DNA of 51,978 nt from Candidatus Pacearchaeota archaeon (lineage in GTDB: Archaea > Nanobdellota > Nanobdellia > Pacearchaeales > GW2011-AR1): the NCBI GenBank assembly GCA_026414385.1, contig JAOAJC010000004.1, forward strand, positions 1-51,978. Reading direction: 5' to 3'. A model generated the notes under the pieces. It had not been told where the DNA came from. It did not search any database and saw only the letters and a list, made by a program, of their open reading frames with translations. Shown in pieces: positions 5,577-19,745 of the stretch; the stretch's first letter is position 1, and the number at the start of each line of letters is the position of its first letter. The position numbers and the translations under genes were made by a program.

Positions 5577-5695
5577 GCCTGCATAGCTCAGTCGGTAGAG
5601 CAACAGTTTTGTATAATGCGATTGCATCGCAAACATTTGATGCAATATGCACTCAAATGAACTGTGGGTCGGGGGTTCGATTCCCTCTGCAGGCT
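5577..5695 (+). tRNA. tRNA-Thr(TGT) with 46-nt intron (5614..5659) at position 37/38
   Basis: Acceptor GCCTGCA/TGCAGGC, anticodon stem ACAGT/ACTGT, T-arm GGGGG-TTCGATT-CCCTC; canonical BHB: central helix TTTG/CAAA with 3-nt bulges TA|T and TG|A. Confidence 0.92.
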
Positions 5696-5798
5696 TTGTC
5701 TAATGGGAATCGAACAGGTTCGATTCACTTCAAAACTCCATGTTTTGAAGTCACAGCGGAACGAAGTTCTGCTCGTGCCTCTGCAGGCTTTGTCTAAT
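5684..5798 (+). repeat. tRNA-3'-end-linked element (Thr): 21-bp direct repeats CCTCTGCAGGCTTTGTCTAAT (5684..5704, 5778..5798) flanking anti-T-arm, T-arm copy and 51-nt two-hairpin core
   Basis: Direct repeats 94 bp apart; anti-T-arm GGGAATCGAAC 5705..5715; T-arm copy GGTTCGATTC 5717..5726; core 5727..5777. Confidence 0.9.
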
Positions 5799-19580: not shown

Positions 19581-19654
19581 GTCCCCATAGTTCAGCCTGG
19601 ATAGAATGCGACCTTGCGGAGGTTGAGACCGAGGTTCAAATCCTCGTGGGGACA
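19581..19654 (+). tRNA. tRNA-Arg(GCG)
   Basis: Acceptor GTCCCCA/TGGGGAC, anticodon arm CGACC-TTGCGGA-GGTTG, T-arm CGAGG-TTCAAAT-CCTCG. Confidence 0.93.
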
Positions 19655-19745
19655 TAGATTTGAACCGAGGAGAGGTTCAAATACTTCAACTTCCACGAAG
19701 TTGAAGTCCCAGAGATCGAAGATGCTCTGAGCCTCGTGGGGACAT
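19642..19745 (+). repeat. tRNA-3'-end-linked element (Arg): 14-bp direct repeats CCTCGTGGGGACAT (19642..19655, 19732..19745) flanking anti-T-arm, T-arm copy and 49-nt two-hairpin core
   Basis: Direct repeats 90 bp apart; anti-T-arm GATTTGAACC 19657..19666; T-arm copy GGTTCAAAT 19674..19682; core 19683..19731 with 11-bp perfect hairpin ACTTCAACTTC-CAC-GAAGTTGAAGT. Confidence 0.9.

Follow-up and report, generated by a model that had tools for sequence, protein, structure and literature searches.

Behind some tRNA genes of the tiny-genome archaeon Candidatus Pacearchaeota archaeon (GenBank assembly GCA_026414385.1) lies a roughly 50-nt, two-hairpin piece of DNA that behaves like one of the smallest known mobile elements. 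Related copies lie at precise spots in tRNA and RNase P RNA genes of many related archaea, and at tRNAs the end of the tRNA is rebuilt so that the gene appears to remain intact. We consider it likely that this core is a non-coding, non-autonomous mobile double-hairpin element of DPANN archaea, an archaeal counterpart of mitochondrial double-hairpin elements with a preference for tRNA T-arms, although its movement is inferred from comparison and was never observed, and no mobilising enzyme was found.

Anatomy of the tRNA-Arg and tRNA-Thr elements

The window, i.e. the whole stretch of DNA that was analysed (51,978 nucleotides), is one of 35 contigs of a 565-kb genome (hereafter G000; other G numbers denote the genomes compared and L numbers individual loci). 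A preliminary description of the sequence had pointed out that the 3' part of tRNA-Arg(GCG) is repeated after 90 bp, enclosing T-arm pieces of the same tRNA and a core related to that found behind tRNA-Thr. Direct reading of the sequence, together with ARAGORN and Rfam predictions, confirmed every piece of this arrangement:

19581-19654 (+), tRNA-Arg(GCG), intact host gene (ARAGORN; Rfam RF00005, 59.6 bits)
19642-19655 (+), first copy of the duplicated tRNA 3' part (CCTCGTGGGGACAT)
19657-19666 (+), inverted T-arm piece (GATTTGAACC), a 10-nt exact reverse complement
19671-19682 (+), second copy of the T-stem 5' strand and T-loop (AGAGGTTCAAAT; GGTTCAAAT at 19674-19682)
19683-19707 (+), core hairpin 1 (ACTTCAA...TTGAAGT)
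19708-19731 (+), core hairpin 2 (CCCAGAG...CTCTGAG, with a bulge near its base)
19732-19745 (+), second copy of the tRNA 3' part, directly abutting the 49-nt core
5577-5695 (+), tRNA-Thr(TGT) with a canonical 46-nt intron, intact host gene (Rfam; ARAGORN with introns)
5684-5704 (+), first copy of the duplicated part in the Thr element (CCTCTGCAGGCTTTGTCTAAT, 21 bp)
5705-5715 (+), inverted T-arm piece of the Thr element (GGGAATCGAAC)
5716-5726 (+), second T-loop copy of the Thr element (AGGTTCGATTC)
5727-5777 (+), Thr core (51 nt, two hairpins)
5778-5798 (+), second copy of the duplicated part in the Thr element (21 bp)

The neighbouring genes include a nucleoside diphosphate kinase upstream and a RadA/Rad51-family recombinase downstream, and no mobile gene was seen next to the element. 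Both elements fold better than every one of 200 dinucleotide shuffles (z about -4.5). A pattern search for hairpin 1 revealed a third copy elsewhere in the genome, behind tRNA-Leu(TAA) and in opposite orientation. To avoid circularity, a covariance model (R2) was built from 22 cores of other genomes only. It scored the Arg core at 38.3 bits (E 3e-6) and the Thr core at 26.8 bits (E 9e-4), the best and second best matches in the 52 kb, and the three tRNA-linked cores ranked as the top three of the whole genome. Further support comes from a 17-sequence alignment in which 9 of 16 pairs show changes on both sides: 95.1% of cells are paired and 37 cells changed on both sides against 11.1 in shuffles, none of 500 shuffles being as high, so that chance hairpins can be rejected. 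The duplication of the 3' end is not due to chance either, as among the 40 tRNAs of this genome only the three core-bearing ones have a duplicate of 12 nt or more within 300 nt, the next best being 9 nt. Two others (Cys and Pro) carry apparent decayed copies, with an inverted T-arm followed by what we read as the remains of hairpin 2.

Distribution and insertion sites of the core

A second model (R1) identified cores in 50 of 181 genomes of the same family and 28 of 87 genera, with very uneven copy numbers reaching at least 32 copies in G019 and G048. In a sample of the phylum, 27 of 371 genomes were positive, mostly from the window's family and one other. A pattern scan of 85,462 species gave strong cores only in Nanoarchaeota/Pacearchaeota/Woesearchaeota-type MAGs and in records labelled only as archaeon, while bacterial hits scored at most 36 bits and had no tRNA beside the core. 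Only weak pattern hits were obtained in viral contigs and none in phage or plasmid records, and the core has no match in Rfam at gathering scores.

Of 69 distinct cores sampled, 35 lie within 200 nt of a tRNA, 31 of them on its 3' side, of which 22 have the orientation of the tRNA and 9 the opposite one. Likewise, 17 of 30 best-hit loci have a tRNA within 130 nt, against roughly 2% that we would expect from 40 tRNAs in 565 kb. The tRNAs cover at least 14 amino-acid types. Among 93 distinct tRNAs in the retrieved loci, a duplicated 3' end is present in 27 of 36 with a core and in 5 of 57 without a recognised one. At least two of these five are divergent cores (L198, L091), whereas the others have other contents, so the duplication process may not belong to the core itself. 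Examples are found at L077 (contig C23 of G048), with about 98-bp tandem units behind tRNA-Gly(TCC) and a 108-nt spacer behind tRNA-Arg(CCT), both without a recognised core. Tandem units of about 90 bp also occur (G005, G042, G048, G157).

The proposal of the preliminary description, an element that inserts into or is templated on tRNA 3' ends, with a conserved core and host-matched flanks, is supported across many genomes and tRNA isotypes, but the insertion point is the T-loop and not the tRNA terminus. The core inserts between nt 60 and 61 when in the orientation of the tRNA and near 57/58 when opposite. Nearly all forward copies with a second tRNA end start it at the first bases of the T-stem 3' strand, at -11 to -14 from the tRNA end (one at -9), nearly all abutting the core, while 5 of 7 reverse copies start it about four bases earlier, inside the T-loop, at -16 to -18. 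Most of the duplicated blocks end 0 to 7 nt past the tRNA, and an intact tRNA is kept upstream. The other junction is irregular and contains an inverted piece of the same T-arm, often including T-stem bases specific to that tRNA. In several cases the inverted piece includes the T-stem 3' strand without the core, so it was copied from an empty T-arm, which a simple flap-ligation model cannot explain.

Furthermore, tRNAs are not the only home of the core, as about half of the sampled cores lie elsewhere, without tRNA-end duplication, which partly fulfils a condition that the preliminary description itself had set against its proposal. The tRNA preference is therefore strong but not a rule. In G160, the 51-nt core lies inside the RNase P RNA gene (RF00373 match spanning it), and alignment with G161 and G162, which belong to the same genus and lack it, shows exactly the core inserted in the loop of the P3 hairpin (AGAATT-core-GTAATGAATTCT), with no target duplication and no inverted copy. 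With the core removed, the loop has the length seen in G157 and G158. G158 has an antisense core at another point of the same gene, where G157 (L199) and G162 (L202) carry other two-hairpin inserts without the ACTTCAA motif; the second hairpin of the G162 insert has the same bulged base, hinting at a wider superfamily. Other copies lie close to sequence that we read as the end of 23S rRNA (L021), in a tRNA intron (L074) and between protein genes. In L044, L051 and L074 the core is embedded in a shared flank (GGAAGGTGAC.T.TTA.GGAAA core CCTT..TTTCATA), once inside a tRNA-Thr(GGT) intron in antisense. In three Woesearchaeota records (L181, L173, L147), cores are inserted in either orientation in a recurring intergenic sequence with GCGGGTTAC... 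and ...GGTCGCTCTCGT, itself perhaps an unknown RNA. L080 (contig C23 of G118; positions 1087, 3754 and 9930) has three near-identical copies of a core-like hairpin pair inside the ribosomal protein operon, each readable as part of a roughly 38-codon open frame just before a downstream gene. Flanks pair around the core beyond permutation in all cores and in non-tRNA cores alone (9 of 34 with 6 bp or more, against a mean of 2.0 expected). The general rule thus looks like insertion at hairpin loops, with tRNA T-arms as the preferred case.

Presence, absence and orientation also differ at a single tRNA: tRNA-Phe(GAA) carries a forward copy in G157 and a reverse copy in G158, and none in G159 of the same genus nor in G160-G162, G000 or G023. 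This indicates independent insertions at one tRNA. Most of the genomes compared are fragmented MAGs.

Possible origin and mode of movement

We propose that the core inserts as DNA, in either orientation, at the loop of a target hairpin. We infer that an unidentified enzyme acting in trans joins the core to one side of a nicked hairpin loop and that the other side is closed by error-prone, fold-back (template-switching) repair, as one exact and one irregular junction suggest, and that insertions that do not rebuild the tRNA are lost by selection. It is possible, but only tentatively so, that this represents a transposition process not yet described, in which closing the second side copies the target T-arm backwards and duplicates the tRNA end, so that the essential gene is rebuilt in the same event. 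The preliminary description had also suggested searching for an orphan integrase or transposase that could act in trans, but none was identified among the families searched: Y1 transposase, Cas1 and reverse transcriptase do not convincingly track the element, and tyrosine recombinases are near-universal (160 of 181 genomes).

Alternative explanations appear less likely. A functional RNA domain kept behind tRNA genes, such as a processing, anti-termination or tRNA quality-control signal, with the inverted T-arm and second tRNA end letting the precursor switch between two folds, would agree with the strong covariation and with the folding of the Arg precursor, which places the distal tRNA end in the acceptor stem and beats all shuffles. 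Copies within a genome also diverge while keeping their hairpins, and differ more than recent transposon bursts usually do, which counts against the mobile-element reading and could also mean a maintained RNA role. However, this reading is unlikely given that the core occurs in both orientations relative to the tRNA (9 of 31 opposite) and antisense in RNase P RNA, that it is present, absent and in opposite orientation at the same tRNA-Phe within one genus, that only 3 of 40 tRNAs have it and that decayed remnants are tolerated. Also doubtful is the repeated integration of small DNAs by a site-specific recombinase (tyrosine integrase or Cas1/casposase-like), the duplicated tRNA end being the att core or target-site duplication. 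The duplicated block of 13 to 24 bp from T-loop to 3' end does resemble tRNA att sites, arrays that could be tandem integrations occur (G042, G048, G131, G157) and other cargoes occur between duplicated tRNA ends, but the core also inserts alone, exactly and without duplication in RNase P RNA, there are no terminal inverted repeats, Cas1 is present in only 10 of 181 genomes, the inverted local T-arm is not a product of such recombination and the tRNA-matched part differs at each locus. The units, of about 60-150 bp, contain no genes, and the recombinase near the third copy in G000 looks to us like housekeeping XerA.

HUH transposition (Y1, IS200/IS605 or RAYT-type) of a minimal two-hairpin element, as for REPINs, is in our view the least probable. 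It would fit the two subterminal hairpins, the lack of target duplication in RNase P RNA and the orientation-independent insertion, yet Y1 transposase does not track cores (23 of 50 against 51 of 131, p = 0.40), with no match in G000 nor in G048 despite its many cores, no constant tetranucleotide lies to the left of the core, and hairpins 1 and 2 are not inverted copies of each other. RNA-mediated insertion, in which the core or a chimeric tRNA precursor is reverse transcribed at the locus, could account for the junction asymmetry, and reverse transcriptase is enriched in core-bearing genomes (27 of 50 against 42 of 131, p = 0.01), but we also regard it as improbable. A CRISPR array does not fit, since the repeat is the local tRNA end and the insert is the conserved part, and neither does an archaeal BHB tRNA intron, as the tRNA genes are complete upstream of the insert without splicing.

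The closest published systems are the mitochondrial double-hairpin and repetitive hairpin-forming elements of fungi, algae and sponges (PMC2800124) and the related yeast GC clusters (PMC4478555), which are tens of nucleotides long, with one or two hairpins and many copies, intergenic and inside structural RNA genes, and whose movement is also unexplained. The archaeal core likewise folds into two adjacent hairpins, is present in many copies and occurs sporadically, with empty sites, also inside structural RNA genes; we call it DHE-like and not a member of that group. The targeting of the tRNA T-arm, with rebuilding of the tRNA end and an inverted T-arm copy, was not found described in the papers searched, nor was the core itself. 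Rickettsia palindromic elements (PMC3767692) are small palindromic repeats of small-genome cells that enter genes without destroying them; they are 100-150 bp long and mostly noted in protein genes, and no tRNA T-arm rule is known to us for them. In REPINs and IS200/IS605 minimal elements two hairpins probably form the minimal mobile unit as well, whereas the present family has unlike hairpins, hairpin-loop targets and no HUH transposase association. How such hairpin elements without genes move is an old question from mitochondria and Rickettsia, and the many copies, both orientations, empty sites at base resolution and fixed insertion point found here make the joining chemistry and the repair step testable. 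The family also shows a source of tRNA-end duplications and of RNase P RNA variation in DPANN archaea.

Casposons are archaeal, use tRNA 3' ends and produce an about 14-bp duplication (PMC6977970), but they differ in every defining feature tested: in the M. mazei case the duplication takes only the last 4 bp of the tRNA and the element has terminal inverted repeats and encodes Cas1, none of which applies here, where the duplication starts in the T-loop in tRNAs and is absent in RNase P RNA. Of the 10 genomes with Cas1, two are core-bearing (G000 and G019), and Cas1 is absent from the other core-rich genomes. The gene of G000 is full-length (contig C2, 3178-4014, (-)), which is rare in this family.
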